This document shows positions 11,534 through 63,579 of a stretch of DNA of 64,000 nucleotides, piece after piece (position 1 is the stretch's first letter; each line of letters opens with the position of its first letter). The DNA comes from Ectocarpus siliculosus (lineage: Eukaryota > Sar > Phaeophyceae > Ectocarpales > Ectocarpaceae), in NCBI GenBank assembly GCA_000310025.1, contig FN649727.1:887025-951024 (forward strand). The letters run 5' to 3'. Both the position numbers and the translations under genes were made by a program. Under the pieces are notes generated by a model. The model was given only the letters and a program-made list of their open reading frames with translations, searched no databases and was not told the DNA's origin.

Positions 11534-12391
11534 CAAGCTGGGCCAGCCAAGATGCCTACAAAATGGTTGAAATCGATTTACACCACGATTTTCACGAGTT
11601 AGAATCTGAAATTTTGACACGTGGTCGGTGTTAGTATAACGAAGACCACGTGTCAAAATTTCAGATTCCAACTCGTAAAAATCGTGGTGTAAATAGAAAA
11701 TTACTTACTGGCCTCTACACCTGGGCGCAGGGACGAAAATATATATAGGAATACACAGNNNNNNNNNNNNNNNNNNNNNNNNNNNNNNNNNNNNNNNNNN
11801 NNNNNNNNNNNNNNNNNNNNNNNNNNNNNNNNNNNNNNNNNNNNNNNNNNNNNNNNNNNNNNNNNNNNNNNNNNNNNNNNNNNNNNNNNNNNNNNNNNNN
11901 NNNNNNNNNNNNNNNNNNNNNNNNNNNNNNNNNNNNNNNNNNNNNNNNNNNNNNNNNNNNNNNNNNNNNNNNNNNNNNNNNNNNNNNNNNNNNNNNNNNN
12001 NNNNNNNNNNNNNNNNNNNNNNNNNNNNNNNNNNNNNNNNNNNNNNNNNNNNNNNNNNNNNNNTTTACGAGGCCATAACTTTCGATGTAAGATGACCTGA
12101 GCCTTGTAACTACCATCATTGTTCTCGCAATGCTCCCAGGTAAGTGCACGCCAAATTTCGGCTTAATCTGTAAAAACGTTTTTTATACTGATTTCAGTAC
12201 CGGAAGCATCCCCACTACACCGCCAATTGAGCATTTAATACCCAAATCAACTCAGATTCGAAAAATTCTGGCACCGGCGCATCCTCTATTGTCTTCTAAG
12301 AGTAGGCACACAAAACTCAAGCCAAAACTCGTGGAATTGGCAGCGTGAGACGCGAAACAACGAAAGTGAGCTTCTTGGCTGGCCCAGCTTG
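11534..12391 (+). mobile_element. TA-flanked inverted-repeat element (MITE-like), copy 1, diverged and partly unsequenced
   Basis: The ends are inverted copies (CAAGCTGGGCCAGCCAAGA at the left, its complement at the right) and each is flanked by TA. The internal sequence from about 12180 matches copies 13631-14319 and 28126-28813, including the stretch around ATCAACTCAGAT. An internal perfect palindrome at about 11602-11669 (arms holding TTTTGACACGTGGTC) corresponds to the hairpin of the other copies. A gap of N lies inside. TA flanks suggest mobilisation by a Tc1/mariner-type transposase. Confidence 0.7.
11759..12063. other. Assembly gap (305 N)
   Basis: Run of N inside the inverted-repeat element; the repeat structure probably caused the gap. 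Confidence 0.99.
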
Positions 12392-17184: not shown

Positions 17185-20100
17185 CTAACTCGGCTCTTCG
17201 CCCGAGAGGCTGTTTTCTTCCATCGCAAGACCTGCACGAAGACCGGCAACATCTTGAGGGGTCTTGCCGTCTCGGTTGCAGGCGTCTTGGTCTCCCCCTT
17301 CCTTTGATAGTGCGGCCGCGACCGCTACGTTTGCATACGAAAACGCAAAGTGCAACGGGGTGTTCCCGTCCGCGTCACGCGCTCGCGGGTCAGCTCCTGC
17401 TCGCAGCAATATTTCCACGATCTCCACGTTTCCGCTCGCGGCAGCTAGAGCCAAAGGCGTTCGACATCGGTTGTCGAGAGCGTGGACGTCTGCCGCTGCA
17501 GACAGGAGGGCTCGGCACGCCCCGGCATAGTCGCGTCGATCGAAAGCGCCCGGAGGTTTTCCTCTCAACTCGGGCGTTCCCGAATCGTTTCTTTCGCGCG
17601 TGCTTGCAACCCTGCCTCGGTGGCGGCGCGCTGGTTTGCAGCATCGACGCGCAAGGTGGGTGTACAAGGAAGGCCGTTGAGCTACTTTATCGCTCTTGTG
17701 AAGCAGTCGAGGGGGAGCGCACGGGAGGCTCACGTCATCACCCCTCGTCACTGCCGCTAGTCCTGCCATGCAAGCGTGGAGGGGTGTAAACCCAAGCCCC
17801 GGGGTCTTGCTGTTAACCCCCGGGCACGTCCAAGGCTTGCCGATCGCGTCTTTCGGAGAGCGCGAGCCCTCTTGGCATGAGCGGGACACCCGTTCGGTCT
17901 CTCCTAGCGCTGCGGCTTCCCAGATGCTCGACATGGCCAAGCGGATGTCATCCGTCCTGTCATGTCAAGCAAGAAAAATATGCGAGAATGCAGGAGACTC
18001 AACGGATTAACACCCACTCTAAATTTTACGACCATGACGGTTGGTTCCAGGGACTGTGAATTTGATGGTTTAAGCATTCAAGACCAGGGGCACACTACTA
18101 GGTCCGCTGCGGGGAGCTCATGGTCAGCGATAGACGCGGAAAGTGTTCCTACGTCGGAGACAACGAAAGGACGGCGTCTGCCCCCGACAGCAATCCCTAG
18201 GCGTTCACGCACCTGCCCAAGTCCATGGCCGTCGTGCCAGCGCTGTTTTCTTGTCTGGCGAGAACGCCAGAATCGGAATCCCAATATACCAGCAATCGGG
18301 TACACCATAATGACCCGCTGGCCGCTGAGTAGTGCAGGGCATTCCACCTCCTTGACGTGACGGACCAAGGGTTTGCTCCCGCAGTAAGGAGAGCCAGGAG
18401 AGCGATGTGCCGGCCCTTCCTCGCGGCAAAATGGATTGGTCGGAGTCCGTCAGCGTCTTGGGCTTCAAGACTTGTCCCGTGGCTTACGAGCATGGGAATT
18501 ACATCACTCTGGGGCATGAACAAGACCGCACGAGGAGGGAGGGGGGTATGTGGCGACGCCGAATAATTCAAACGATGCTTTCCTTTGTCGAAAGATGGGT
18601 TCTCCAGACAAGATCGACCGGGCCGACGAGTTGTACGATGAAAAAACGTCAACCTTGTAGTGCCAATAAAGTTGTCAACTCCGTACGGTGCATGCAATAA
18701 TGTGAGCGTGCCGCAACGAAGGTGTTTCCACCCATCTACGTGTTGACGAAATACGAACCTTTGCCGGTCCGCTCGCACTTGCGGCTATGTGCAGAGGCGT
18801 TTTTCCGGTGTTAGTCCGAGCGTTCGGATCATCGTGTGATCCCAGCAAGGCGAGCGCACAGGAGTAGTGCTGAGTTGAATCCTCGGTGCAACATGCATGT
18901 AACGCCGACCACCCGTTCGCATCAGTCGCCAGTGTCGCCGCGTTAGGCATACCCCGGGAGATGTTGTGGTGGTCGTATGCACAGTGACCTGTACTGAGTC
19001 GAGCTCGCCCAATGATGTCTTCGGACGGTTTCGATGATGTGTCCCACTTTGCACAACCTTGAGTCGCCCCAACTGTCTCTTTCCCTGACTCTCCTATCCC
19101 TCGGCCGAGAAGATCTGTAACAGAATCAGGCAACCCAGCAGTTGCAGCCAGGTGGAGACTCGTCTTTAGATCGACTCGAGCCTCGCTTGCGCGGGTCTGT
19201 GCTAGCTCATCCTCTGCCAAGGTCGAGATCCACATTGCCATCCGACGATTATCGTCCCGCTGTAACGACTCGCATTCGCTTGATTCCTTCAGTTCACTCC
19301 CGTGATCAAGCCTCTCGCGCAGAAGTTCTCGTTCTTCCTTTCGATCACTGGTCATGTCAGGGATGCACCCACCAAGCGAGCGGTCTTCGGTCCGTTTCGA
19401 TAAAGTTTGGCATAGCGATTTCCTGGCTTCTGCAGCCAGGACCCTCCTCATGAGCAAACTTGGTGAAACAGAATGTGGGGTCAAGCCAGTCCCATCTACC
19501 GCACAAGCGGAGGCTGCCCCATGCCGAATGAGAGTCTTTGCGGCCGGAACGTTACCAGCAGCGGCAGCGAGAAAGAGCGGTGGTCGGCTGAGTGCATCCG
19601 TGGTCTCGAGAACGGCAATCCTCGCTGCACGAATTCGATCAATGTCAACAAAGCAGTGCTCGCAGCTACCGCTATCACCATCGTCCTCGCTGGAGTATTC
19701 CTCTGGTAGACATAGCGCCTTGCTCTCCCTGCGTGGCTCATATCCTCGTTCATCTTCCCAGTCATTGGATGGGTCATCTGTCCCCTTATCATCCTGGTTA
19801 GAACCCATTCTTCTTGATTCTTTCACCTCCTTTCTTCCGAAAACAATATCCATCAGAGGGACATACGAAACTTCGACGAGCGTGGAGTCGGTGGAGCTGT
19901 CCCTTCTGACTCGTACGTCTCCGCGCTGGGAATCGCGGATTTCGTGTTGGTGGCGACCGCTGCGAGATTTCAGGGTCCGTGCTCGGAAATAACGCCCGAC
20001 CTCGAGCAGGGTCTGTTCCGAGACTCTCACGTTGACATCGAAAAGACATTCGCGAAATTGTCGCATGGAGAGGGTTCCGTCTCCATTCCTGCATAACGTG

Positions 20101-22250
20101 AGCGGTGCGGACAAACATGAGAAGAGCAAGAGTCGAGGCGCGAAACAGGAAAAATAGTCTCCCTCGTATCGAAACTTCTCCGACAATATTAGTCAAACCG
20201 TAGGCTCAGTTGTCTCGTATCGTCCAGTACTACCCACCGGTCAAAGTCCTCGAAAACGCTCAGCAAGAATGCCTCTGCCCCGCCCCTCTTGCGCATCGAC
20301 AGCTTCTCAGCCGTTTTCGCCAACGCCCCGCAGAACCACTGGACCTTCGCGGTGGTAGCGGTCGACCCGTCAGGACCCTGGCGTGGGTCTGAATCTCGCG
20401 CGTGCTGCCCTTGTCGACCGTTCGTCGTGTCTCGTTTTCCGCCGGCTCTACTTTCTTTCCTTCTGCTCCGCAGACATCGGAGCTTTCCGGTCCGTCGATG
20501 GAACTCTCCGTCACAGGGGAAAACGGCTTTGTTGATATCAGTGCTACCACAAGTGGGTGCGTTGCCGTTGGAACCTCGACATGCTTTCGATGGAATATTC
20601 CTTCCGTCGGATGTTTCGCCGCGGAGCTTGGCTTTGAGCGCTGCAAATATGGCTTTGTCGGGGGCAACACTCGCGTCTCTTGCGGATAGGTCTGCCCTGC
20701 CGGTGGTGATGAGGGAGTGAATGAGGGAGTGATCACCTCCCCGTGCTGTAAAACGGCGATAATGAAGTGCACGGGCCAGGAGTAAACCGGGGAAAATGTT
20801 GATTTTTTTTATGACAAACCACGGCTGGTTGACCAGAAAACAAACGTGTGGAGAATGGGTTGCTGCAAAATCTGAAAAGTTGGGCGACCTGTTGTAGACT
20901 ACAGTGGAGAAGCCTCCCTACCGACGAGACCCTATACCGTCTTATTCCCTTATCCTTGAAATGTAATCGTGGCCGTGGAGTGAATCGAAACAGCATGAGC
21001 AAGAAACAGAGTTGTGGCAAGATGTACGGGCAGGACGAGTAAAGCTGCCTCGCTACTGGTACCTGAAGCAGCCCAGTGCAGAGGGGTGCGTCCCCTATCA
21101 TCTCTGGAGGTCACTGACTTTCTCCAGCACTCCTCGCATCGAAGTTCTGTTACTCTCACAAGTCGCCGCCTTTCGTCGAAAAGCCACCTCTCGAAACGAT
21201 CGACGTCGTCGATAGTGATCTTCCCGGCTGGTCGGCCACCGCCGGTTGTCTGAGGAACATCCACTCCTTGAATGAACATGTCTCGACGATGGTCCAGGAA
21301 ATCTAGCTCGTCTTCAAGACGTTGGTTGAGGTCACGTCGCCAATACTGCATCAGGGTCTTCACCATCCGGACGTTCTTGGTGCCGACTGCCATGTGTAAC
21401 GCCGTCCGTTGTCTGAACAAGGCAGGCGTGCACGGAGCGATTGATGACTAACTACAGTGTGTCGAAGTGTCAGCGCAATTCTCATATCCCTACGGCACAA
21501 GTACGACTACAGCAGCTTACACTTTTGGCCCCACGAAAGCGAACGAAGGAGAACACATGGTTTCACCGGGTTCCTACTGTAGATTCAATACCTATCATCT
21601 GCTGCCAGAGCAACCGCCACTCCTTTCAGTCGGCTGCGTTTGACTGCCTCGTCAAGTGCTTCCCTGTCCCCCGACAGCACCGCTCGGATGACTCGATTGG
21701 ACACCTTGTCCACGGCTGGAATAACTATGCGCGTGCACAAAACTGAGCGCACAAGGCGCTGGAGAACATGATCATTGGGCGGGGCGTCTCAGCGATCAGG
21801 GGCTCTGGTGATTCGGATCAAGTGCCACAGATCATGTTTCGTTGCCGGTGCCGAACGCAGTTTACGGAGGGAAAGCAAGTCCGCTATACATTGACACAAG
21901 ATGTGTGCCAAAGCCATCATTCTAAGAGATATATCACCAGAGCTTGCACCGGGGTGGACATCCCAGCAGTTTATTTATACGCACCACATTTGTCAGGGTC
22001 TTTTGAAGACTCTCCACGTCTTCCTTCTTGGGTCTTGTGGTCTCGTCCGTTTCTGGCGTCGTCTCCGCGTTTTCGCCATGGTCCTTCTCTACGACTGTGC
22101 CTTCAACCGGCGCATCAGCTGCTGTTGTTTTCGCAGAAACTGCTGGCGATTCTTCAACCTTCACGACGTCACCACGGAGTAGAGGGTCATCGGGAGCCCC
22201 CTCAAACCTGACAAGATAAACATGCCAAGAGCGCAACCAATCGTGTTCCG
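17185..22250 (-). CDS. Large ankyrin-repeat protein with an EF-hand-like loop (5' end unresolved)
   Basis: Exons in coding order: 22250-21981 (5' limit uncertain; acceptor could also be at 22207), 21715-21592, 21412-21063, 20745-20238, 20088-18759, 18508-18213 and 17956-17185. All junction phases agree, giving about 1,200 codons to the stop. Ankyrin-type helices are visible along the chain: QRTALHMAVGTKNVRMVKTL, GRTPLHWAAS, PPLFLAAAAGNVPAAKTLI, TSLHLAATAG, GKTPLHIAASASG, GLRPIHFAARKG, RTPLALAAASGNVEIVEILL and GNTPLHFAFSYANVAVAAAL. Near the middle, across the intron at 20089-20237, the frame reads DFDRNGDGTLSMRQF, an EF-hand loop with Gln at the last chelating position. Ankyrin repeats mediate protein contacts; the EF loop suggests calcium sensing, which is inference. 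The donor of the first intron (gtataa) is weak, and I found no in-frame Met in the first exon, so an exon upstream of 22250 is expected. A frame at 22268-22777 is a candidate. Confidence 0.72.
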
Positions 22251-39913: not shown

Positions 39914-40013
39914 NNNNNNNNNNNNNNNNNNNNNNNNNNNNNNNNNNNNNNNNNNNNNNNNNNNNNNNNNNNNNNNNNNNNNNNNNNNNNNNNNNNNNNN
40001 NNNNNNNNNNNNN
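39914..40013. other. Assembly gap (100 N, conventional size)
   Basis: Exactly 100 N followed by a poly-G tract, so the true gap length is unknown. Confidence 0.99.
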
Positions 40014-43872: not shown

Positions 43873-46800
43873 AGACAACATGAACAACAAAACAACATAA
43901 AACAACAACAACAAGTAGGTCTCACCGGATAAACGCCTCCCTGGATCCTTCCCAGAACCACTTCCCGGAAGCGCCCATCACGCGCACGGGGCAAGCACCG
44001 CCCTCCTTTTCCCCCAAGAGACCATCCAACGACGTGCACGAACGGTAGTACAGCTTCGCCCAAGTCGCCTGTCGTTCAACCCGATTTTTTTTTTTTGTTT
44101 GGCGGAGAGGCAGAGGAAAGCTGCATCAAACACTCATCCTTGTTGGCAGACGTTTCAGGCGTTCAGTAGGCTTCCAAGTATTCTTACTTTGGTGGGGATG
44201 GATGGAGAGAACGATGCGTGTACGTCGCACCAAAGAGGATTATTAGTGAGAAGCTTTACGCTCGACGCTCGAGACAACCTGTGGACAGCTTGGCTCGTCG
44301 ACAGAGGGGACCCAAAATGTTGGCGGGCGTAGTGTTGGCATGTGTCCGCCGCGGTTTGGAGGCCCTGGGTAGGCACGTCATTGCTTTCCGTCAACGATTA
44401 GAGACAACCAAACGACGGTTTCCAGCTAGATTGCATCTTAGCGAGCCCTTCGCTCTCAGCGAAAGAAAGGAGTGACGGCAAGACCTAAGCAACAATCAGC
44501 ATACCACACTTCGCTTTCCGTGTGAACCTCACTAAATACCTTTTTGTGTCCTGCCACATTCCACGACGGGAAGTGCTGCTTGTAGGGTACTAAGAGCTCG
44601 CTCACCTCATCGAAGCAGAGAGAGAGCATGTGCTTGCTAGTCTGCGAGAGGCGCCCCAGGTCGCCAGCGTCCAAAAACGTATGCACCTTCCATTGTTGGA
44701 GTCGGCGCGATTGAAAGCGTTTCCGGCACAGGAGGGGCAAGGGCGGGGGATTGTTGTGTAGGGTGGGCACGTACATGTAGAGTGCTCCAACACGTGGTCA
44801 CCCAAAACGAAAAGGTGCTCATGTCGGTCAAAATTATCCTTCCAAGTTCAACTAAGTTCCAGCATTGCAGCGGGCATTGCAACAGAACAATCAAGCGGCA
44901 ACGGCAGCCGCCGCAGAAGGTGGGGCACTAAATAGCACTGAAAACGCTCCCTAGACCGACGCCACTGGCAAAAATGAGCGGAAATCAGCCAGAACGACAC
45001 TTCCACCCCAGCGTTTTTTCACCAGCAAGAAGAACGCTAAACACTACTAAAAACGATAAATGAGGAGCGCTAACGCAAAGGCATGGTCTTGTGCCCGCCC
45101 CGGCTGAGAGAATTAGAGGGGAGAAGTTCCGCAAACCATTGGCAGTAGTGGAGCTATGGTTCGATGTTGCTCGCGCACCTGGAGAACTGTCTCGGACGAT
45201 AGGTGCGTGAACGGGCAGCTGTTGCCGCTCGTTACGCAAGGGGGCTCCGTCTCGAAGAGGTGAAACAACCAGCCAATCACCTGGCTTGCCTAAGGGAAGC
45301 ACACAATGGCGGAGTGGCGGAGTTGGGGGGGGGGGGGGGGGGTTGGTACCATGCTGAACAACTGATGTGTTCGCACGGCCAGCAGGCCACCACAATGCTT
45401 GCAACACCCAGGGGTTGCACAAGAAGGAAGGGAGGGGTACAAAACAGGCACCACCAACACTCGCACCAAAACATGCTCTCTTCGTCTATACAAACCCAAC
45501 CCCACCGCAAAAAAACGTCTCTGTTTTTTGCAACCATTGTTCCGGGCGCAGTTTTCGCATGCTCGGGGCGGGACCAAAATCTACACAAAGCAAGCAAGCA
45601 GCCCCCTTGTCTACACAAAAACCATCGCTCTGTATCTAGGTGCCCGCCTCGTGATACCTCTATCGTGGGCAGCCACTTGTCGAAGCTGAGCTTCTGCATT
45701 CGGAGGCGGCCGTTCGCATCCACGAGCGGATGGCCCGGGTTCGACACGTTGCGGTGGGTGCGGGGGAAGTCCACCCGGGGCGGCTCGAACGGGTGCCTGC
45801 GGCTGAAGGTGACCTCGAGGTCGTACACGAGGCCCTCCCAGCTGGTGCCCTTGCCGCCCGGGACGTCCAGGATCCACTTAAATATGCTGCCTTCCTCGGT
45901 CCGTACATTGGCGGTCTGTGACGGGTTGTGTGGAATTCGTGCGCCAGGGGGACACGCAAACAGGAGAGAGCGATCGCAACGGGGGAACACGGATGGGTGC
46001 GGCGACGGTTACGCATTTTCGATGTAGCAAAAAATTAAAAACCGTCGTCCTTGGCCTGCTGCACATCGGCGCACGCAGGACGAAAGAGCCGCCGTTACGA
46101 GACGCGACGCAGGGCCGTTTCGAAGACGGAAGAGCAAGTCCTTGGGAACAGGCAATATTAAAAGAAGCCAGCCGATGCACGGACACTATTGTATTGAAAA
46201 CCAAATGGAACTATTGCAACCCTTCCTACAGGTGCCAATATGGCATGGGGTATCGCCTCCGGAATACTGCCCCATACACAGCAGTCCCCGAGTTTTCAAC
46301 AAGATCCAAACATTTTGGGTCATGACAATTGACGCGTTTCAGAACAAAAAAACCGAGACGCATTATTGTGAGTCGTGGTCTCCTTCGTACAGTGTGCAAG
46401 CATTGTATCCAACGACGTCGTAATGCACAACGCGATGGATGACACCATAGCGTTCAATTCAAGAAAATAAAAAACACCATGAGAAACCTCTTTCATACTC
46501 CAGGGGATACATGACCCTGCTAGTAAAACGTTCAGCATATAATTAGGAAACAAGCACGCGTCCATCAAGAGGAAGCGGGACGTCGACGCTGCCTAAATAG
46601 CAAACGACGGCGGATGGGTGTCGTGCGTGAGCTGGCCGCTCGCTTATATTTCAGCCTGTTCGATCGGAGAGAATGGCAGTCTTCATGTTCGAAATGAGCT
46701 CTGGTTTGTGTCCTCCTGGGACGAGCCACTGCGGTTGTGGGCCGCTAACGGTGGGCCCGAGAGCGATGCTGAGTGGTGAGGGCTGATGCACGGGGGCGGA

Positions 46801-51629: not shown

Positions 51630-53340
51630 TCATCTGACAGTTTCTGCTTCGCGGTTGACCTTCTGCTCTGCGGATAGCCTCACGAACGATCGCACGGCCG
51701 TCGTGCCCAGCGACGCCGCCTCGCAGCACGCAAAATACTCCTCCTGGCTCATCGAACCGACGGCGTGGCACGACAGGACTCCACCACCGGCGGAGAGAGT
51801 GGCGACGACGGCGGTGGCGGCGGCATCAATCTCCTCGGCCTTGCATGGGTCCAAGAGCACGGACCGGCCAGAGACCGTGGCGGTGATGCAGCAGGTGACC
51901 GAGAGGGCCATGCCCGTCATCTCTACCCCGGCGTTGAGGAGGGCCATCGTGGCAGCGTTCAGAGCGGCACTCAGAACAGCCCCGTCGTCAACGATCACCT
52001 GTTTTTTTAGTTTTGGTGGTTGTTGACGCATGTCAGGAAAACGGAAATAACAAGCGGCTACCGCGCACAATCGACATTTTGGGTGGGTGCTGCTAATAAG
52101 GAATGTGTTATTGCGTTTTGCGTGAACGAGAAAGCGTACCATATGTTTTGGCGTGGCGTCACTTCGTCAATAAATGCACGACCTAACGTAAGCCGTGCTT
52201 GTGACTGTGCATGTTATATCAGGCACGCGTTACATCAAGGTGGCTGGTTATCTACATAGGCGTAGCCTATCTTGGGCGCATGGGGAAGGTAGACAAGGGC
52301 GCGCGTCAATAGGCTCGCTGTTCATGGATTAATGCCGGTTCTTGCCGAACGACGCGCAAGCCATCAAGCACAGTCCAGATGCCGCTGCCACACGGGGGCA
52401 GCATCTCTTGCTCGCAAGTGCAGCATTGCGGCATTGGAGCTGCAACATGCTTCCAATTACTGGTACTGTCAACGCTTTGCAAGCGGGATATCACCGCCGG
52501 CGGCATGTGTAACTGCTCGCTGGGGAACCAAGAAATGCCTTAACGGTATATTCCAGCCGGGGATATGTTCCAAAAAGCAAAGCACAAAACCTGAAATATA
52601 ATCTCGATTTAGAATGTGGCGGTGTGTCTTGTGCTTCAGATCCAGCACGCTGTATAGGCAGTTCGACTTAGACGCAGAAAAGCCGCCAAAGGTATGTGCT
52701 CATGCCGCGGCTGTCGCAGAGACTCAGATACGATAGAGTACGGACCGAAGCAGCTGGTAGGCGGCATTGGTAGTCGGTATGCGTTTGAGGCAAGATCACT
52801 CAATACGCATGTACGGGGAGCTCTTGCTGTCCCTTCTATATATTGCTCTCCATATGTTTGGTACAGATACGAAGCACCATGCTTCACCAGCAGCGTTCCA
52901 GAACCAGAGCCATATATATACTGCTGTTGTTTCTCTGCTATAGAAGCTCGAATGCGACATCTTTACACCCACCCTGCCTCGTTCCCTTCAACTTTGACAC
53001 AACTATGGACGCACACCTGGATGATAACTGACACCACGGTCCTGGGATATCTCGACCTTAGCACCACCTCCTCCAGCGACCTCCGCAGCAGCGCCTCCGA
53101 TTCCGCATCGGCGGATGACGTTATCCCGCTCTCCGGCTTGAAGCTCACATCTAACGTCGCACCCTCTGACCTCTCCATCCTCAACGACTTGGCCGGGGCT
53201 GGCCCGTAGACGGCCGCGAGGACGGAGGTGTTGCCCTGCACGAAGCGAGCGGAGCCGTCCGCTCTGTTGAGGATGCCCTGCTCTGCCGCGAGAGGGCGGA
53301 TCTGGTTGGCCCGCCTCCCGTCTCTCCGAGTTTCCTCCAT
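51630..53340 (-). CDS. RRP46: Exosome complex component RRP46 (RNase PH fold)
   Basis: Two exons, 53340-53017 and 51998-51630, joined in phase 0 (donor gtgtgc, acceptor aaacag); the product is 230 residues, close to the usual RRP46 length. The N-terminus reads RRDGRRANQIRPLAAEQGILNRADGSARF, typical of EXOSC5/RRP46, then QGNTSVLAAVYGP and a second part with QVIVDDGAVLSAALNAATMA, LLDPCKAEE and SVGSM-like AVGSMSQEEYFACC. In eukaryotes RRP46 is a catalytically inert subunit of the RNase PH ring of the exosome, acting in 3'-5' RNA decay and processing in nucleus and cytoplasm. The intron is 1,018 bases. The gene lies head to head with the PTOX fusion gene. Confidence 0.92.
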
Positions 53341-53691
53341 GCTTTAAAGGGAAGGCAGGAGAACAACACCGAGATCGAAGAACGAACTACCGCCTTGGTG
53401 CTCCTATGGTGTTGTTCTGTGGTAATCGTATTATACGGCAGCCCGCGTGGCGTGGGATCTGTCGCGGCGGCAACTAGTGGCAACGGCGTGCAAAATGCTC
53501 AGTTCGGGTGTTCCAACGAAACGCGTTTTGGTACGGGTAGTCTGATGCCCGAAGCGTAACGCGCGGCCAAACTTCGTTAGCAAGACGAAAGACTGAATGA
53601 ACACTGCGACTGAACTTGCAACCTTCCTAGTTACCGAGCACCATCCGGAGTCAGACAACTACCCGTTCTACCAGAAGGACCGGCGTGTTGT
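53341..53691. promoter_or_regulatory. 351-bp head-to-head space, candidate bidirectional promoter
   Basis: It separates the RRP46 start codon (minus) from the first Met of the cNBD-PTOX gene (plus). Both 5' untranslated regions and the promoters must fit here if the start codons are right. No motif is claimed. Confidence 0.4.
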
Positions 53692-56493
53692 GTGCGTACT
53701 TCGATAATTCGAGAATCCCAGACCGCAGCGGTCGGGATGATTATCAGGTTGATATGCATTCTGGGCGCCACTGACACAGCAGCAGCAGCTCTGGGGCAAC
53801 TGCAAGGGCAACTGCAAGGGCAACTGCAAGGGCACCGTGTGCCAGCTTTCTCGACTGCTGTTCCAACAACTACAAAGTGGGGTGGCCAGAGACATGCCTT
53901 GTTGGATGTGCGTCCACGCTCTCCCCGGTCATGTCCTTACGGGGATCTCCGGGCAAGAGCTTGCAGCCGCCGCACGGGTAGCAGCAGCCGCTTTGACGCG
54001 AAGATGGCCGTATGGGGAAGAACGGGAACAATCCGCGACTGCCCACCCTTAGATTCTCCCGCAGGTGCTGGGCTGGCGAAGGAGGGCATCACCGAGCGCG
54101 AGTGGGCAGCTCTTCTTAAGGTTGGCGAGGTGATCTCTCTCAAAGGAAGCGAGCTGCTCATATCACAGGGAGACACCTACGATGAGCCAGGGGACCGCCA
54201 GCTCTATCTACTTTCTGACGGGGAATGCCGGATCGAAGTCAAGGGCAAACCGGTGGCATCCATTGCACCAGGCGACTTCGTCGGGGAAGGTGCTATATTT
54301 ACTATGCAGTGACAGCGTCACTGTGTTTGAGAGCAGGCGATTGGGCAGCAGTGGTTATGGTGTTGCAATGTGTGACGTCTGTTGTACTCTCTTGAAAAGT
54401 ACGTACTCTCTCATGAATGGAAATAATAATTACATATCCTCTGAAACGAAATGACACACGTACTCTTTTTCTTTTTTTTCTTAATAAATTATGACACAAC
54501 GAATCCATCTCTATCATAGAAAAGAGTCAGAGACAGATTAGCAATGAATGCATAGCGTCAGAAAGTACCTGTATGTCTACGATTTCCCAGACAGCATATA
54601 GGGACATCTCCCCTGCGGGTAACAGGCTTAACAAAACAGTTTGGTAGCTGTCTTGTGTGTCTCATACATGTTATGTTGGGAAGGTGCAGAAGAGAGGTGT
54701 TAGGTTGGGTCGTCGGGCGTTTTGTGTGTGGCACCCTGTTAGTCGTAGAGCATGCAGTCTCCCTCAGTTTTCAAACGTTTTTTCAGCGTGGTTCGCATAT
54801 GTACGGAGTATGCATATTTGTCTTTTTTATTGTTGGCAGTAACGAGGTTGGGTGAAAGTCCCGCTCTATTGTTACTTATAAAAAAAAAGCTCATCTCTAT
54901 CGGTGAAAGAATCCAGGATCATCTAGGGGATGGCTTCATGGTTATGTATGACCTACCGATGTCTGTCTACTACGGTGGCCACAAGACCCAGCAATTTTAA
55001 GTTCCGGGTGGGCCGAGGAACGGCAAGGTGTCGGTTGTTCCGAGCATGGCGGCGGTCCTATCATCTTTCACCTCTGTTGGCAACTCGTATGGATGCGGTA
55101 TGAGGTACTGCCTGCCCTTCGCAGTTGTTCTGCAGCGACCCCAAAGTTTTGTTCGAAACTATGCTTTTCTCGAGATGATCACACGACCTGATATCATGTT
55201 CTGGTACATTGTCGTCAAAGGGTGTGCACGGCCTTGCTTGGGCTGCCCCTGCACACCTAGAGCTTCTCCATCGAGGAGTCCCCAGCTGAACTGCCTTCAG
55301 GAGTTGCCCGAGGATGACCGCAGGCGAGTTTTCCGCCTTCCGTCTCATGTCGGCCTCGGACTACCATCAACGTTGTCTTTTGTGCCCGGAAAAAAGCTGT
55401 GCTTAAAAAAATTCTAGAAAGGTGGCAGTGTACGAGAACGGCAAACTTTGAGCTCTCCCTCCCCCCGCCCGCCTTCCCGAATGTCCCGGATCCACCGTGA
55501 TTCGTCGACAACGACTGATCAGCATCGTTTACCTCCGGGAGGGTGCAGCCACGTACCGCCACCGTGCGCGCGAAAAGCGACGAGATCCGTGTGATGGCGT
55601 GGACGTGGAGAGACCTGCAAGCCTTCATGGACAACCCGAAAAACTTGCGCACCAAGGTTTGGCGTGTGCTGAGTGGTGTTGTTATTGTTGCTGTAAACCG
55701 CACGGCAAGTGTAGTAACCCTTGCCTTTAGGAGATCTTCATTGAGGGTATTGAGACGTAGTGGCAACCTCCAACAGGGTCACGGAACGAACAGTGAGAGA
55801 TGCCAAGTGTTGGCAGAAGTTTTTTTTGTATGGAGGGTACTGCTGTAGGAACAGTGCTTTGTCTCGCAACGGGTGTATATGCAGCCAGTAATTTATCGAC
55901 CTAGGACCTGCACCACCGCGCCCGCGTCCCTCGGTTGTGGGTGTTCTCATCCAGGCTGCGCTGCAGGCTATCTGGATGGAGGGACTTGCGGGAAAACTCA
56001 ACGACGTCATGTCTGCGCTCGGCGGGCAGTCGGTGGTGGAGCTCGCGGAAGAAGACAAGACTCGGGCCGGCGACTACGGGTACCGATACCTGGTGCGGAA
56101 TTACCGAATCGAATCGATGTGATGTGGTACTCGTAGACGTATGCAGCAAACAGTGTCGTTGAGGGCCTAGTGTGAGTGTATTTCCTGCGTTGCACCCGTT
56201 GGAAAGAAGTGTACAGATTTGTAGCGTTGAGAGAAACGTGTGTTGGTGCAGGCGCGTGTGTCTTGTTTTGTCTACACCTCGCCACTGTTGCGTCTTCTCT
56301 ATTGCGGCGTGTTCAACTTGCGTGTTGGTATCGCGTTGTAGATCACGTCAGACGGCCATCTCCTTGCGACGACAGGCTTCTTGATTCATGGTGCTGCAGC
56401 GAGGAACTCGAGGGGCCGAGCCCGCGTCATGCTCTAGCATCCCTTGCATCGCTTTTGCGCGCAACACAGAGAGAGAGCCACACACACACACAT

Positions 56494-56542
<49 letters not shown>

Positions 56543-59500
56543 GGGACAGGAAGATAACAGGAGAGGGCATGTTTCTGTGTGTTAGCTACGTTCTTTGTCA
56601 CCTCAGCCACACGCGTGAGGTAGAGATAGGCGGCCTTCTCTACCCAACATGATTTTTTCTTGTTGTCACCCTGGTCTCATATTTCTATTTCATTCCGCAC
56701 CGATAGGAGGACACGCGGGAGGTGGAAAGCATTGTGCCGATCAGCGCGAGCACCTTGGCGTGGTGGACGTTCACGAGAGAATACCGGGCCCTTCGAAGAA
56801 CTTTCCGTTTCGGAGAGTTCAAGGACACCGGCATCGCTGGACCGTTCTCGATCATCGATAGGTTTCTCGAGACGTGAGTAAGCGCTAACTTGGGAGAACG
56901 GGGGGGTATCATCGTCTTACTATGTTTGCCTCAACGAATAGCTATGGCAAGCAGGTGTTACAAGCAGGTTTTACGATTTTCTTTGAGTACCCCGGCGTTA
57001 CGTGTTCCGCTTCCACAACAAGGGTTTGGCAGAGGATCCGTCTTGGACACCCGGAACACCCATGAACCCTTACGTGACTGGGTTAATTTGATTGTTTTTT
57101 GTGTTTTTCCCCACAACTGGCTCTCTGCGGTCAAAGATCTTCCAAGCATGTGTGTACTGTACACCCATAAATCACGGCGGCAAGGATGGTGCAGCAGTAG
57201 GTTCATGTGTGGGGCTCACAGGGATGGGGACGCGGTATATGTAAGGGTGACGAACAGGAGTACAGTAGTACTGCTGTACAGCAGTAGCAGCTATGCGGAC
57301 AGAAATATACTGTACAGCAGCAGTAGTTTCTGAACAGGTGTGCATGCCTGTCTCCGACAGCAACCGTCCGCACAGAGGATGTGCCTGTGCAAGCAATACC
57401 TGTTGGCACATGTTCTCCACCTCATCCTTGGACAGAGCATACGGCAAGCGCATATGCTAGCGGCGCTAGATGCGAAGACGCTGACGGGAAACCGCCTCAC
57501 AGAAGCGCCAGATCGACGAAAAAAACGGCCCGCTCATCAGAGAATCGAGGCCATCATCCACTATCGCACAAAATGCATAAAAATCGTGATAAATTTTACT
57601 ACTCTGTACTACAAATAGAGAGCTGTGATCGGAGCTGTGATCGGAGCTGTAGTCCCGAAAACCCTTGCCTTTGAGCGAAATTTTGCACACAGCAGACGAC
57701 CCACCCTTCACTCCCATTACTGGGAACCACACGCACCGCAATCACAACAACATCAAGCACCGAGGCAGTACGTTAGCATCGGCTCCGGTGCGATTTCTCT
57801 GCTCTCCCCCGCGGATGCGGCACCGGGTTGATCACATGTTCAGGGTACTGTATGTACCCTCCGGTGGTATTTTGCGTTTGAATCATACAGTACCGGTAGG
57901 CAGTAGATTGGATCTGGAAAGGATGTCTGCACCACGTCAGAGAGATTAGGCATGGGTGAATAGTATTGTATTATGTGAGTCCTGTGCGCATTGCTGATAA
58001 GCGTATTTTTGGGGTGGGCTGCCTGTGTCTCCCTGCTGGTCTCTATGTATGTATGTTTTTTGCTCTTAGCCGAGGCACAACGGCGATCTTTCGGCACGCA
58101 AAGTGATCGGAGCTGAGAACGGAGCTGAATCGGCCTGTAGTCACGGAAGGGTTAAGTGCCCAACCCTCACTAGGGCACGCCATGAGACCCTGGCCTATTC
58201 TCCGACCTCCTGGCAGACTAACAGGACCAGCGCTGCAGAACACTCGGTACTTAGCGATTGGCGGAAGAGCATTGGGTGCGGTAGGGCATCCAGGAGGCTC
58301 TGGTTGCCGTGACACTCTTGCAGTGGCTCCGCGCGCAACGCAAATGCCGGGCTATGAGAAAATTCCGTGCGAGACTTCCGCATTTACTGCATTTTAACGC
58401 CGACTGATCCCGGAGTGTGCTCTAGCGAGGCACCGACGGCGGACCAACTACAGTACCGCCCTTACGTCACCAAACCCCGACTCCCCATTTCCTCGTCACC
58501 AACACAACAACACACTGTTCCGCAAGCTACCGTACCACGTATCTCCACACCTCACTAAACCTGACTTCCGACAATGGGTTGGGTTGAGCCCGATCACCGT
58601 TACACCCCACACGTCACACCGACACAATTCCGCGTTCCCCCCCTACAAACCGCGTACCCTCGGCAGGTCTGTATTCCCGGTGCTCCGGCCGTCGCGAGTG
58701 GACCTCCCACAGGATCCCGAGGTGGTGGACCTGCAGAACCGCCTGAACGAGCTCAAGCTGAGCAACAAGGCCATCGAGGACAGGGAGACGGCCAGGATAG
58801 CGGCAACCAAGGCCTTCCTCGAGGATGAATCCCGCAAGGGGTTGAGGGCCGCGGGGTACATCCTGCGGTCGCAGACCCCTTGGTATGTGATGGCGCCCTA
58901 CAAGGCCCTCTGCTGGTTCTTGGGTGAGACGTTGGCATCTGCCGTTTTCGTGTGTATGTAGCCGCGAGCTGGAGGGGGTGGGTGGGTGGGTTGGGGCGGG
59001 AATGTACTCATGGCCGTGGAAAGGGTGAAGAGGTGAGGCTCATTCATTCGGAGTGCTTCATTTTGATTACCTTCTAGGCGCGCTCTTGCTTCAAGAGCAA
59101 TATTCACGAGCTCATTGCGTTCGTGCAATACACGATCTTGCGTGTCGGACGGTTTTGTAGTGAGGAGGGCTTTTCAGGCGGGCAGGCAGAGGTAAGGAGG
59201 ATACACAGAGGGTTTCGTACGTGACACGAGGCGGTGAGCAGGGGTTGGTGGGCCGGTAGGTTGAGGGAATCCCCGAGGGGAGTGTTTCGATCGACAAAAT
59301 AGGCCTTTAGGTTCGATTTCATGCCTCCCGATAGAGATCCCCGGTGAACGCGGAATGCGGAGAGAGTCTGAGCCCGCGCGACAGGAAAATGCGGTCAAGC
59401 ACTCCTAGCTCGAATATTTTCACCTCAGTCGACATTTTTGAGCGAAGAAAAGCCCCGGTCTCGAGGAACACTGGTACGACTTCAGACCTCGAAAATTGTG

Positions 59501-61574
59501 TGCCTGAATTGTCATGTACCCCCCCCCGATGCGGTGTCGCTGATTTTCTTTCATGTCCTATGCTGCGTTGCGCTTCACTTGCGGTCGCTGGTGCTGCAGA
59601 CGTGGTCTTCGAGGATCGACCAATCCAGCGTTTTTGGTTCTTGGAGACGGTGGCAAGGTGAGATTGAGGAGGAGCCGTTCCTGCACCCCAACATACATGT
59701 CCTGCGTGCGCGATATACTCGTATTCGGTCTCGTATTTGGTCTCATTTTGCGACCGGGCGGGGTGAGGGGTGCCTGTTGATTCCATTTACAAAGATCCCC
59801 TGAGGTAGTTCCGTGGCTTGCCTCCCAGGGGCGACGCAAGAAGTCATGGCCAATGTCATCACGGGTGGTTCGATGCATCTCAACGTTTGGTAGGGCCGGT
59901 TTTTCCGAACAACCTGCGGAATTTGCGTCATGTGCGGGGAATATTTTTTTTCCCGTGACTTTAACGCGTGTGCGTGAGTTTGCGCTTTTTGGCTGGCGGC
60001 GTCTTTGCCGCAGATCCCACTGCTGCAACCCGTGGCGTTTGATCGGTCGCTCTTATGTATTTGTACGGTACGGTTGCCCATGATCTGTGGGAACCCGTGT
60101 GTGCTTTGCGCAGGAATACAGGGTCTTCCTGTTTGCGCAGAGAAGTTTTTTTTTTCTTGCGAAGTTTTTTTTTGTTCGAACTTCCTCCCTGCGAAATAGA
60201 GCCAGTCGAGGCGACTTTTGGCACCGGTTGCATGTGCCACGGATGAACTCCGGTGCCTGGGCAGGCGCGTTACGTCGCCGACGAGCCTCCAGCTAGCTCC
60301 TGAGAAGGAATCGTGGGATAACATCCTCTGCTGCTAGAGGAAGTTGTTCCGAAGCTCGAAATGGAAGTTGTTCCGAAGCACGAAATATTTCGAAATGAAA
60401 TATGTTGATCACACGTTGTAGACAGAAAATGCCCCTTCGATTTGTGTGTTTCATGGTGCCGTCAGTCAGTGCCAAACTCCTAGGTGGAACTCGGGCAAGC
60501 TCATCCTACGGTATGCCTCTTCAGTATTGGCAGGGATGCTTGGGTCTTCGTTAAGGCCCAAGGACTCCGAGAATATGCACGGCGTGTACCGAATGAGCCC
60601 CCCCCCCCCTGTCTTCCCGTCTTGCTCTGGCCCTCATCTCCAGGATGCCGTACTTCTCGTACCTTTCGATGCTGTTTCTGTATGAGACACTGGGTTGGTG
60701 GAGTGGTGCTGCTGAAGTCAGGAAAGTTCACTTCGCTGAGGTATATGTGCAAAATATAGTACGCGAATTGTGTTGCCGTCCCATGTAGTCCTCGACGTGA
60801 GGTTTTACGCTCATTTGGGGTGTTTTTGAGGCAAAGATGCGGTCCCCACGAGCCTGTTTTCGGGTGGTAATGGCGAGCGGAATATATATTGGATGGATAC
60901 ATTAACTTTTTGACACCGTGAAGGAGTGCGGTTCTGCTGTCCTGGCTGCGTCTAGTTCGGCGATCATGCGTTGTGCACTTCGTCGGCCATGGCGCCGGAC
61001 GATCCTCGCATCACCCTGCTGTGCCGTTGTCACGCCGCCCTCCCCGTTGCGGTAAACCTCGACACGTCTCTCCGCAAGACGCCAGGGGACATCTCTCGAC
61101 CGCGGATTGTCTTGTTGATTGAACTCCTCTGCGACAACACGCTTATCATATGTGACTTCTTCGTTCTGTGTCTGGTTCGAGTTCCCGCCTTCGCCGCTCT
61201 GACCTCAACGAGCATGATGTCCAGCGACTGCTCTCCTCCCCGCCCAAAAATCATTTCCCTTCTGGACCCCGCCTGGACTATCTCCGGAAACACCCCGTTG
61301 TTTGGTGCTTGATTGCTTGACAATCTGGGCCGGCTCGTCAATGCTGCGGTCGCATATTCCTTCCGGGTGCGTTGGGCGTCGGGATCGATTGTTTCAGGAG
61401 TACAATGAGATGCAGCACTTGCGGATCATGGAGTCGCTAGGAGGAGACACGCGCTGGTCCGACCGTTTCTTGGCCAGACACGCCGCCATCATCTACTTCT
61501 CCGTGCTGATACTGGTGAGTTTATCCCAACGGCAAGGGCGGTACACGACGTACATCTATCATGTCTCGCCTTTG

Positions 61575-61606
<32 letters not shown>

Positions 61607-63579
61607 GTGTACGAGATCCAAGATATGGTACAACCGCACACAATAATCATTTTATTTACCTGGTGTCGCCCTTTATTGGTTTGAAACTCCAGCGAGCCTG
61701 CTCTCCAATTTCCAAGACACTGCTGCTCTTGCTATTTTACGGCCTCATTTTTATCGTTTTTCGGGTGGTGCCCGTGCCCCGCCACTCCCTTCACGTGCGT
61801 ATCACGACGCCGCCGTTCTCTCTTCGGCGCATGTACACGCCGCAAAGCAGCCATGAACCCAAGCTTCCTGTACCTCCTCCGCTGTTTTCTTCGCAATCGT
61901 GCAGGGGTATCTGGTGTCACCCTTCTTGGCGTACAACTTCAGCGAGCTCATCGAGAGCCACGCCGTGGACACCTACACGGAATTCGCCGAAGCCAACGAG
62001 GAGCTTCTAAAGAGCCTGCCGCCTACTCCACAGGTGAGATCGGCACAGCATGAGAACGTGACCTGATGCCAGAGGATTGTGAATGTGTGAATAGTACTTG
62101 TGGTAGGATGCGATTCCTCACGTGGCGTTGTCATTTCTGGATCATCCGTCCTGGTCTCAAGACGCCGATGTACTCCATCACCCTTCGGCACCAAGCATTC
62201 TGAGTACACTGGCCGGGGTCACACAACTTTTAATAGCTCCAACTAGGGTCCCCGTCTTCAACTATTCTCTTTGGAGATTCGTGAAGGCTTTGCCTCGTCG
62301 ACTTTATTTAGCCGAGGTTTCCACCGTTTTATTCATGGCCGGCATTCGAACTTCTGGTCTGGACCACCCGAAGGGCATACAAGGAGCGATTCAGCTGGAA
62401 CGTCGCGGATTGATTTGAAATCCTTCAGCAGAAACGCGATGCGTGTGTCCCGGATGGTCGTTGTTTGTTTTTTTATGCTGTTGCAGTATAAACGCGGGGT
62501 ACACGATATTGCACAACATGGTTGCGTGGCACGAAAGGCTGTATACACATGGAAGTATAATACCCTCTAAAACGTGAACGAGTGGATGACATGGGCTGGC
62601 TTCGTTTTTCCGTTACAGGCGTTGGACTACTACCACGGGGGAGACATGTACCTTTTCGACGAGTTCCAGACCAGTCGGCCTGCTTTCAGCCGCCGACCGA
62701 GAATTCAAAACCTTTACGACGTCTTCAGGTGCGGTGATATCGTATCGGCGACTCAGCCTTTACCGCCGACATATGCATGACTTATGCGTGCAAACGTGTT
62801 ACCTCCTCGGCCGTCGTTCCAGTTGTTGCTGTCGACTTTGCGCCTGCACATCTCTGCGACAAGCTTGTCATCATCAGATACAGATACCACGTCCACACGA
62901 GTGATTGTAACAGAGCTAGATATGCGCTCTGCTGCGTGTTTAGGCCCTAAGTTTCGGATACTGCTCTACTCAAGCGCGAGTAAAGCATGTACAAACGAAC
63001 GCAACCCAAAAGCATGTGAAGAAAGTCCTGTGCGAAGGCACGAGGGCAGCGCAAACGTTTCACGGAAAACATCCCTCGTCACGAACCAACGAACGAACAA
63101 ATATGTGTGCTTGCAGCTGCATCCGCGACGACGAGTTGGAACACGTCAAGACGATGTTCGCCTGCGAGCGGGGCACAGGCGCCCTGCCCTCCCCCAACGC
63201 AGCCGCGGCGACCCCGCGCTGGGCCCAAGACGCCACACCCACCATGCCCAATGCCACCGCCCCCAACATCCGCCGGAATACGGTCAAGAGAGCGGAGACC
63301 GATGACGCCGGCGGCGGGGGTCGCAGCGGCGGTTCGGACAAGCTGAGAACGGACATTGCCCGGAAAACCCCGCTGGAGGCGTTTACGGCCGCGTTCAACC
63401 CGCTCAGGGACCTGGTCAAGGCCGTCGAGAAGCGTGACGTCACGGAGAAGTTGCGGCGGGGAAGAGACAACGGCGGGGAGCAAGGCACAGATTCGGCCGT
63501 AGGGGCACGGGGAGGAGAAGAGGAGAAGATCGACGTGTCGGCCTCACGAAAGGAGCCGGAGGAAAAGCAAGATTCGTAG
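53692..63579 (+). CDS. PTOX: Cyclic-nucleotide-binding domain fused to plastid terminal oxidase (PTOX/alternative oxidase)
   Basis: Eleven exons: 53692-54289, 55523-55656, 55955-56092, 56707-56873, 58667-58923, 59600-59657, 60644-60740, 61398-61514, 61905-62033, 62619-62728 and 63117-63579. All phases agree; 755 residues. The N-terminus has a hydrophobic stretch (MIIRLICILGATDTAAAA) and a PAF word, a possible bipartite plastid signal. Residues ~130-244 form a cNBD with the phosphate-binding cassette GEASFTSG (Glu199) and PRTATV (Arg210). Residues 432-615 are PTOX: RFWFLETVAR (Glu447), NEMQHL (Glu487, His490), LIESHA (Glu539) and DDELEH (Glu608, His611), all six di-iron ligands. HGGDMYLFDEFQ marks the plastid form rather than mitochondrial AOX. 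PTOX oxidises plastoquinol with oxygen on thylakoids. The cNBD-PTOX link rests on splicing at CTG|gtgcgg (56093); reading through gives a stop at 56122 and a separate cNBD protein. The oxidase exons have no start Met of their own. The last ~135 residues are a Pro/Gly-rich, charged tail. Confidence 0.75.
53782..53833 (+). repeat. Coding tandem repeat, three units of 12 bases
   Basis: GGGCAACTGCAA-type units encode repeated GQLQ between the hydrophobic N-terminal stretch and the PAF word of the cNBD-PTOX protein. Confidence 0.85.
56478..56539 (+). repeat. CA/GA dinucleotide microsatellite in intron 3 of the PTOX fusion gene
   Basis: A CA run followed by about twenty GA units. Confidence 0.95.
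56874..58666 (+). other. PTOX: Long intron 4 of the PTOX fusion gene
   Basis: Donor gtgagt, acceptor cggcag, phase 2 on both sides. It contains self-complementary TACTGCTGTACAGCAGTA-type words at about 57258-57325 and a repeated GGAGCTG/TGATCGGAGCTG motif near 57623-57650 and 58103-58125. No other gene is seen. Confidence 0.75.
61576..61603 (+). repeat. CTG trinucleotide repeat in intron 8 of the PTOX fusion gene
   Basis: About nine CTG units, 60 bases after the exon 8 donor. Confidence 0.95.

Follow-up and report, generated by a model that had tools for sequence, protein, structure and literature searches.

This analysis concerns a 64,000-nt stretch of the brown alga Ectocarpus siliculosus (contig C2, positions 887025 to 951024), hereafter the window, from a genome searched as 189 Mb in 492 contigs. 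On its plus strand, 11 exons between 53737 and 63579 join into a single open frame of 740 residues, which is predicted to encode a plastid terminal oxidase (PTOX), a safety-valve enzyme of the chloroplast, carrying a cyclic-nucleotide-binding domain (cNBD). The genomic sequence is best read as a cNBD-PTOX fusion, which in our judgment is probable. This reading is preferred because the exons flanking the critical junction are both coding, a protein cannot begin in exon 4, the best in-phase donor lies on the cNBD exon, and no other PTOX gene was found. The fuller proposal, in which one 11-exon nuclear gene encodes a single fused and plastid-located PTOX, is held with somewhat less confidence and is still likely.

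In the predicted protein, an N-terminal extension is followed by the cNBD, a linker of ~140 residues, the PTOX core, and a tail of ~140 residues (Table 1). All ten introns are bounded by GT and AG, and the spliced frame stays open throughout, confirming the first-pass annotation of this DNA, which had described ten in-frame junctions. Runs of N occur in the window only at 11759-12063 and 39914-40013, so no marked gap separates the cNBD and PTOX halves. The earlier start, 53692, is a GTG located 15 codons 5' of the first ATG (53737). Because its numbering began at that GTG, the cassette residues previously given as Glu199 and Arg210 are E184 and R195 when counted from the ATG, as is done here. 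Translation might also begin at an internal Met at 54004.

The oxidase half matches the Pfam AOX family (E 1.6e-24, residues 410-601 of the whole spliced model) and contains all six di-iron ligands, four Glu and two His (E432, E472, H475, E524, E593, and H596). The ligand assignment follows AOX structures (trypanosomal AOX); the first four were aligned with trypanosomal AOX and the rest with cyanobacterial PTOX. With two cyanobacterial PTOX proteins (Nostoc and Acaryochloris; plasmid-borne copies), the core shares 52-53% identity, compared to 29.5% over 149 aligned residues with the genome's own mitochondrial-type AOX, encoded on contig C368. The segment GDMYLFDEFQT...NLYDVF, common to both cyanobacterial PTOX proteins and missing from a short phage protein in the same alignment, is kept as well. 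By these comparisons, the oxidase half is a PTOX, nearer to cyanobacterial PTOX than to mitochondrial AOX, and its predicted function is plastoquinol:oxygen oxidoreductase activity. The C368 protein carries LETVAGIPGMV, NERMH, EEEAVHTY, and DEANH, which are motifs of mitochondrial AOX.

In the genome, the Pfam AOX model matched five times at two AOX loci, with four matches in the C368 gene and one in the cNBD-PTOX gene. Searching the genome with the whole model yielded no second copy (11 of the 12 matches fall in the gene itself and one is weak and unrelated), and neither did a search with the cNBD part, for which all three matches belong to the same gene. The gene appears to be the only PTOX of this genome, with the proviso that an exon-by-exon search can miss diverged copies, as the Pfam AOX model caught just one oxidase exon of the cNBD-PTOX gene.

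The upstream half matches Pfam cNMP_binding at residues 138-221 of the whole model (E 3.9e-9, 36.8 bits), and the isolated domain scores 41.1 bits against a curated cut-off of 27.5. Judged by these matches, the cNBD half is real. Two variant exon borders within the domain are less favored. One splices exons 1 and 2 in frame from a donor after 54289 to an acceptor before 55523; it lowers the isolated-domain score to 38.0 bits and has a poor acceptor, though a better donor, making it a minor alternative. The other ends exon 2 at 55665, which adds VWR and scores 41.0 bits, with a donor of -0.6 versus 3.7.

The coding signal was assessed by comparing the codon-usage score of each exon with those of 500 length-matched random open frames, based on a small training set (1631 codons from 18 segments, plus PTOX exons 5-11) from which exons 1-4 were held out and exons 5-11 were not. 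By this measure, exons 2-4 are coding in the frames given, with held-out scores reached by 1/500, 0/500, and 0/500 random frames, respectively; for the cNBD half of exon 1, the count is 11/500. As the first-pass annotation had argued, exon 4 contains no Met and is entered in phase 0. An in-frame TAG (56704-56706) lies directly 5' of it, so that the exon, if translated, needs a phase-0 exon upstream. The GTGCGG donor proposed for this purpose, at 56093, is indeed in phase 0. Under a splice model of 13 donors and 11 acceptors, picked by eye from the PTOX part and the C368 AOX gene, it scores 7.4, the highest value between 53737 and 56706 (the next named donor, at 54684, scores 7.1). Among the window's 4128 GTs, 1.6% reach this score; the figure is 2.9% when the GTGCGG donor of exon 10 is left out of training. 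The implied intron, 56093-56706, measures 614 nt, inside the span of the gene's other introns (298-1793 nt); three AOX introns measure 286-578 nt.

Two further candidates were set aside. Skipping of exon 4 with a PTOX start in exon 5 would use the Met in VMAPYK (residue 406) and leave no presequence. The sequence HNSAFPPYKP, an ASAFAP-like SAF motif in a plus-strand open frame (58398-58666) 5' of exon 5, has no acceptor visible directly before it and was judged a chance occurrence. In addition, the stretch of intron from 56123 to 56706 includes runs of CA and GA dinucleotides (~56478-56541), a possibly polymorphic stretch that could affect splicing.

For heterokont plastid presequences, the HECTAR paper describes a signal peptide, an ASAFAP-like site, and a transit peptide led by Phe (PMC2567999). 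Exon 1 begins with a candidate presequence, MIIRLICILGATDTAAAALGQ..., followed by VPA/FSTAVPTTT (residues 35-46) and then by a stretch rich in Ser/Thr and Arg. By inspection, these parts stand in the right order for the bipartite signal that a plastid oxidase requires, and the N-terminal extension is suggestive of a plastid presequence.

Elsewhere in the genome, 87 matches to chlorophyll-binding proteins were found, and in some of them an SAF motif precedes the mature part, as would suit a heterokont alga. Twenty of these loci (L037-L056, on contigs C92, C232, C488, C11, and C18) have an equal bit score of 127.6 and represent a large near-identical array or assembly repeats; 18 of the 20 lie on three small contigs. 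In the LHC genes L036, L044, L046, L050, L052, L055, and L056, the sequence 5' of SAFNGAA or SAFKGAA is mostly copy-specific, with L050 and L052 alike just before the motif, as if an intron sat just before the ASAFAP-like cleavage site.

Several observations weigh against a plastid-located fusion. The presequence is weak: its hydrophobic stretch is short, a small QLQG repeat separates this stretch from the site, and the first 88 codons are weakly coding, with 46/500 random open frames scoring as high. The exon 1 donor scores -0.1, a value reached by 40% of GTs and lower than all 13 training donors (3.2-11.1 when each is left out in turn). The exon 4 acceptor scores 2.1, a value that 29% of AGs reach, although two of the 11 acceptors used for training, likewise left out in turn, fall lower. 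The linker matched no Pfam family. No fused orthologue emerged from single-sequence peptide-pattern scans of prokaryote and viral contigs, a method that reaches close relatives only. Finally, among the best 80 of 117 cyanobacterial PTOX loci confirmed in a profile scan, no open reading frame (ORF) of at least 80 residues matched the cNBD (blastp, E 1e-4, with a single sequence, which could miss a diverged cNBD). In the 81 AOX-type ORFs of these 80 loci, the core is preceded by 2-80 residues, with more than 60 in four ORFs. There is, in these loci, no sign that the cNBD came with the cyanobacterial enzyme; since it was not found there, the domain would be either a late addition or a mis-join.

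The main rival reading has two neighboring genes, namely, a 284-residue cNBD protein ending at 56122 and a PTOX gene with its own first exon within 56123-56706. The exon 3 frame passes the donor by only nine codons before a TGA, and the weak exon 4 acceptor points the same way. A scan for single ATG-started exons 3' of 56093 that could be joined to 56707 in phase 0, with donors scoring 2 or more, returned two, a bare ATG and the exon encoding MFLCVSYVLCHLSHTRE, which has a hydrophobic N-terminus and a phase-0 donor leading to 56707. The fusion proposed in the first-pass annotation stands as the best reading of the genomic sequence, qualified by the existence of this short exon. The donor of the latter, however, scores 4.1 versus 7.4 for 56093, and its 87-nt intron would be shorter than all 13 introns measured (286-1793 nt, model introns of the cNBD-PTOX gene included). 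Its N-terminus runs into EDTREVE with no Phe after the likely cleavage site, which by eye makes it a poor plastid presequence. Moreover, a terminator and a promoter would have to fit within 585 bases; a bacterial-type pattern scan of this interval gave no promoter-like and one terminator-like pattern (56236-56259), compared to 0.3 each in shuffles, although such patterns are uninformative for a eukaryote. Taken together, we consider two separate genes unlikely. One gene could also give two products, with retention of intron 56093-56706 yielding a soluble cNBD-only protein that ends at 56122 and splicing yielding the fusion. Retention adds nine codons and a stop, and the combination of a good donor with a weak acceptor could favor partial retention, but nine codons are not enough to reveal selection, and we rate this arrangement as very improbable.

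Under the preferred fusion, the question arises of what the cNBD binds. Its cassette comprises G183-E184-G185-A186 and P194-R195-T196-A197-T198. In human cGMP-dependent protein kinase (PKG) I, E184, A186, R195, and T196 find their counterparts in Glu183, Ala185, Arg192, and Thr193, and the G183/E184/G185 positions correspond to Gly182, Glu183, and Leu184 (PMC3080414). There, the ribose 2'-OH is held by the Glu and the phosphate by the Arg together with the helix amides, and the guanine 2-amino group is in contact with Thr193, although the isolated domain has only an approximately two-fold preference for cGMP (PMC3080414). The cNBD has the cGMP-type feature of a Thr directly after the cassette Arg (R195-T196). 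Since this arrangement is that of the cGMP kinases, cGMP is favored over cAMP and is the more likely ligand of the two. In a PDB sequence search with the cNBD, cGMP-dependent kinases came first (whole-chain E 7e-10), followed by regulatory subunits of cAMP-dependent protein kinase (PKA).

Some findings count against cyclic-nucleotide binding or, more narrowly, against cGMP. The first-pass annotation had placed a cNBD with an intact cassette 5' of a six-ligand oxidase; both domains, all ligands, and the cassette Glu and Arg are present, but "intact" is too strong, as the Arg lies at +11 from the Glu versus +9 in PKG and PKA under either GT-AG splice considered. Joining exons 1 and 2 by the GT-AG splice makes the cassette exceed the canonical length by two residues, and this insertion makes cyclic-nucleotide binding uncertain. 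Furthermore, the PKG matches in the PDB add up stretches that are individually weak (E between 0.19 and 2.3 in the alignments shown) and not significant alone, and their top rank is largely due to PKGs carrying several cNBDs, each a weak match. Only one PDB match, the Pycsar effector PycTIR (8jsj), includes a stretch that is significant by itself, and PycTIR is also the best profile match of the cNBD (47.7 bits, E 3.2e-13, PADLOC library). Given the weak PKG stretches and this best match, sequence kinship does not name the ligand, for which the cassette residues are the better guide. The score with the PycTIR profile is better than that with the general Pfam cNBD model (41.1 bits).

Pycsar effectors bind cyclic pyrimidines (cCMP or cUMP). 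With such an effector as the best profile match, another cyclic nucleotide is conceivable, and the fused cNBD might bind a cyclic pyrimidine, as they do, or a nucleoside, as in trypanosomatid PKA, where a switch to nucleosides is known (PMC10959531). The profile match, however, reflects general cNBD kinship and not the ligand. In the nucleoside-binding proteins, another residue replaces the cassette Arg and a Glu stands in the Ala position (PMC10959531), whereas A186 and R195 of the algal domain are typical of cyclic-nucleotide cassettes, and T196 is typical of those for cGMP. We therefore see little chance of such a ligand. A somewhat more serious, though still unlikely, alternative is that the cNBD of the fusion has lost nucleotide binding and acts only as a structural or dimerization module. 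The Glu-to-Arg spacing of the cassette, longer by two residues, would fit, as would the segment QGDTYDEPGDRQ, which is several residues longer than in PKG. Decay, however, would be expected to erode the Gly-Glu-x-Ala and Pro-Arg-Thr-Ala-Thr motifs, and all of these are kept.

On contigs C13 and C479, cNBD matches lie 1-4 kb from protein-kinase matches, suggesting PKG-like genes. Because of these neighbors and of guanylate-cyclase-domain exons in the genome (three matches), the organism probably makes and reads cyclic nucleotides.

The cNBD-PTOX fusion suggests the following scheme. One nuclear 11-exon gene would give rise to a PTOX with an N-terminal cNBD attached by the linker. The fused protein would be delivered to the plastid, where the cNBD, on the stromal side, may bind a cyclic nucleotide, with cGMP likelier than cAMP. 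Ligand binding would move the C-helix of the cNBD together with the linker, and this shift might alter the membrane association or quinol access of the oxidase, which in turn would set the rate of electron flow from plastoquinol to oxygen. That membrane association controls PTOX has already been proposed, there with reference to pH (PMC4700201). The same paper reads the low PTOX activity in vivo versus the high activity in vitro as a sign of a still hypothetical control mechanism, and notes that PTOX can protect or damage the photosynthetic chain (PMC4700201). Given the fusion, a cyclic-nucleotide control or rate-setting role is close to an even prospect, leaning slightly toward doubt. The stricter version, in which the sole PTOX of this lineage is directly ligand-gated and a stromal cyclic nucleotide (most likely cGMP) switches plastoquinol oxidation, is more tentative. 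If true, the built-in cyclic-nucleotide sensor would be a direct regulatory input on PTOX, cyclic-nucleotide signaling inside a complex plastid would be implied, and chlororespiration and carotenoid desaturation would be tied to such signaling.

Table 1. Features of the putative cNBD-PTOX gene and of its critical junction, in window coordinates
Feature	Position	Strand	Content
5' region	53341..53736	+	Probable divergent promoter between RNase PH-type gene and cNBD-PTOX gene; contains GTG 53692
Exon 1	53737..54308	+	First ATG, N-terminal extension, VPA/F motif (residues 35-38), first cNBD half to cassette G183 E184 G185 A186
Exon 2	55542..55656	+	Remaining cassette R195 T196 A197 T198, end of cNBD
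Exon 3	55955..56092	+	cNBD C-terminal helix; closes at phase-0 donor CTG/GTGCGG
Exon 3 read-through	56093..56122	+	VRNYRIESM and stop; C-terminus if the cNBD is a separate protein
Rival first exon for separate PTOX	56569..56619	+	ATG, MFLCVSYVLCHLSHTRE, phase-0 donor GAG/GTAGAG, 87-nt intron
Exon 4	56707..56873	+	Linker; no Met; in-frame TAG directly before
Exon 5	58667..58923	+	Linker, charged, helical-looking by eye, up to oxidase start
Exon 6	59600..59657	+	Oxidase; first ligand Glu E432 in LETVAR
Exon 7	60644..60740	+	Oxidase core
Exon 8	61398..61514	+	Oxidase; NEMQH with ligands E472 and H475
Exon 9	61905..62033	+	Oxidase; ESHAVDTY with ligand E524
Exon 10	62619..62728	+	GGDMYLFDEFQT...NLYDVF, common to cyanobacterial PTOX; GTGCGG donor as in exon 3
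Exon 11	63117..63579	+	DELEH with ligands E593 and H596, then ~140-residue low-complexity tail, stop

The divergent neighbor of the gene (51630-53340, minus strand) encodes RNase PH domains 1 and 2, resembling an exosome subunit, and probably shares the promoter region. Its ATG, at 53340, bounds the cNBD-PTOX gene on the 5' side, so that the beginning of the cNBD exon is confined to less than 400 bases. Other minus-strand features of the window include a ubiquitin-conjugating-enzyme-like ORF at 45277-45990 (Pfam UQ_con, 50.4 bits) and an ankyrin-repeat ORF at 17185-17940 (Pfam), to which a second long ORF at 18675-20186 is similar by eye. An Rfam scan of the 64-kb window gave no match, and an NCBIfam scan gave only weak matches, far under the cut-off.

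Beyond the cyanobacterial loci, the profile scan matched one viral contig (L145). PTOX matches were found in 101 phage records, one of which was examined (Cyanophage P-TIM40, with a 504-base gene too short for a cNBD), and in six plasmid records, of which the two examined are both ordinary-length cyanobacterial PTOX genes. No published account of a cNBD-PTOX or cNBD-AOX fusion was found in literature of partial coverage, with few subscription journals and preprints. A brown-algal lead is the Fucus distichus expressed sequence tag BU038040, one of 47 proteins of that species analyzed in the HECTAR paper; a signal peptide is predicted for it there, and a bacterial cNBD protein is listed as a weak match (E 2e-3; PMC2567999). 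It resembles the present protein as a brown-algal sequence with a cNBD match and differs in being predicted as secreted and not chloroplast-located, and the available part of the paper reports no oxidase part.

Among known systems, the closest to the oxidase half are the plastid terminal oxidase (PTOX, IMMUTANS) and the cyanobacterial plastoquinol terminal oxidase, with which it has in common the six ligands, the core identity given above, and the GDxYxFDExQT segment. Unlike the known PTOX forms, the algal protein adds the cNBD, the linker, and the tail. The mitochondrial-type AOX on C368 belongs to the same di-iron quinol oxidase family, yet it lacks the PTOX segment, and the genome-wide Pfam search, the only one made for it, gave no cNBD on that contig. 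The cNBD half is likened to the cNBDs of PKG by their first place among the PDB sequence matches and by the corresponding cassette Glu, Ala, Arg, and Thr, but here a single domain, with a cassette two residues longer, is placed on an oxidase. PycTIR, a bacterial cNBD-TIR protein, is its top profile match, whereas the algal protein has no TIR domain and no defense context and is joined to an oxidase. The predicted cNBD-PTOX would be a new domain architecture of an already known enzyme.

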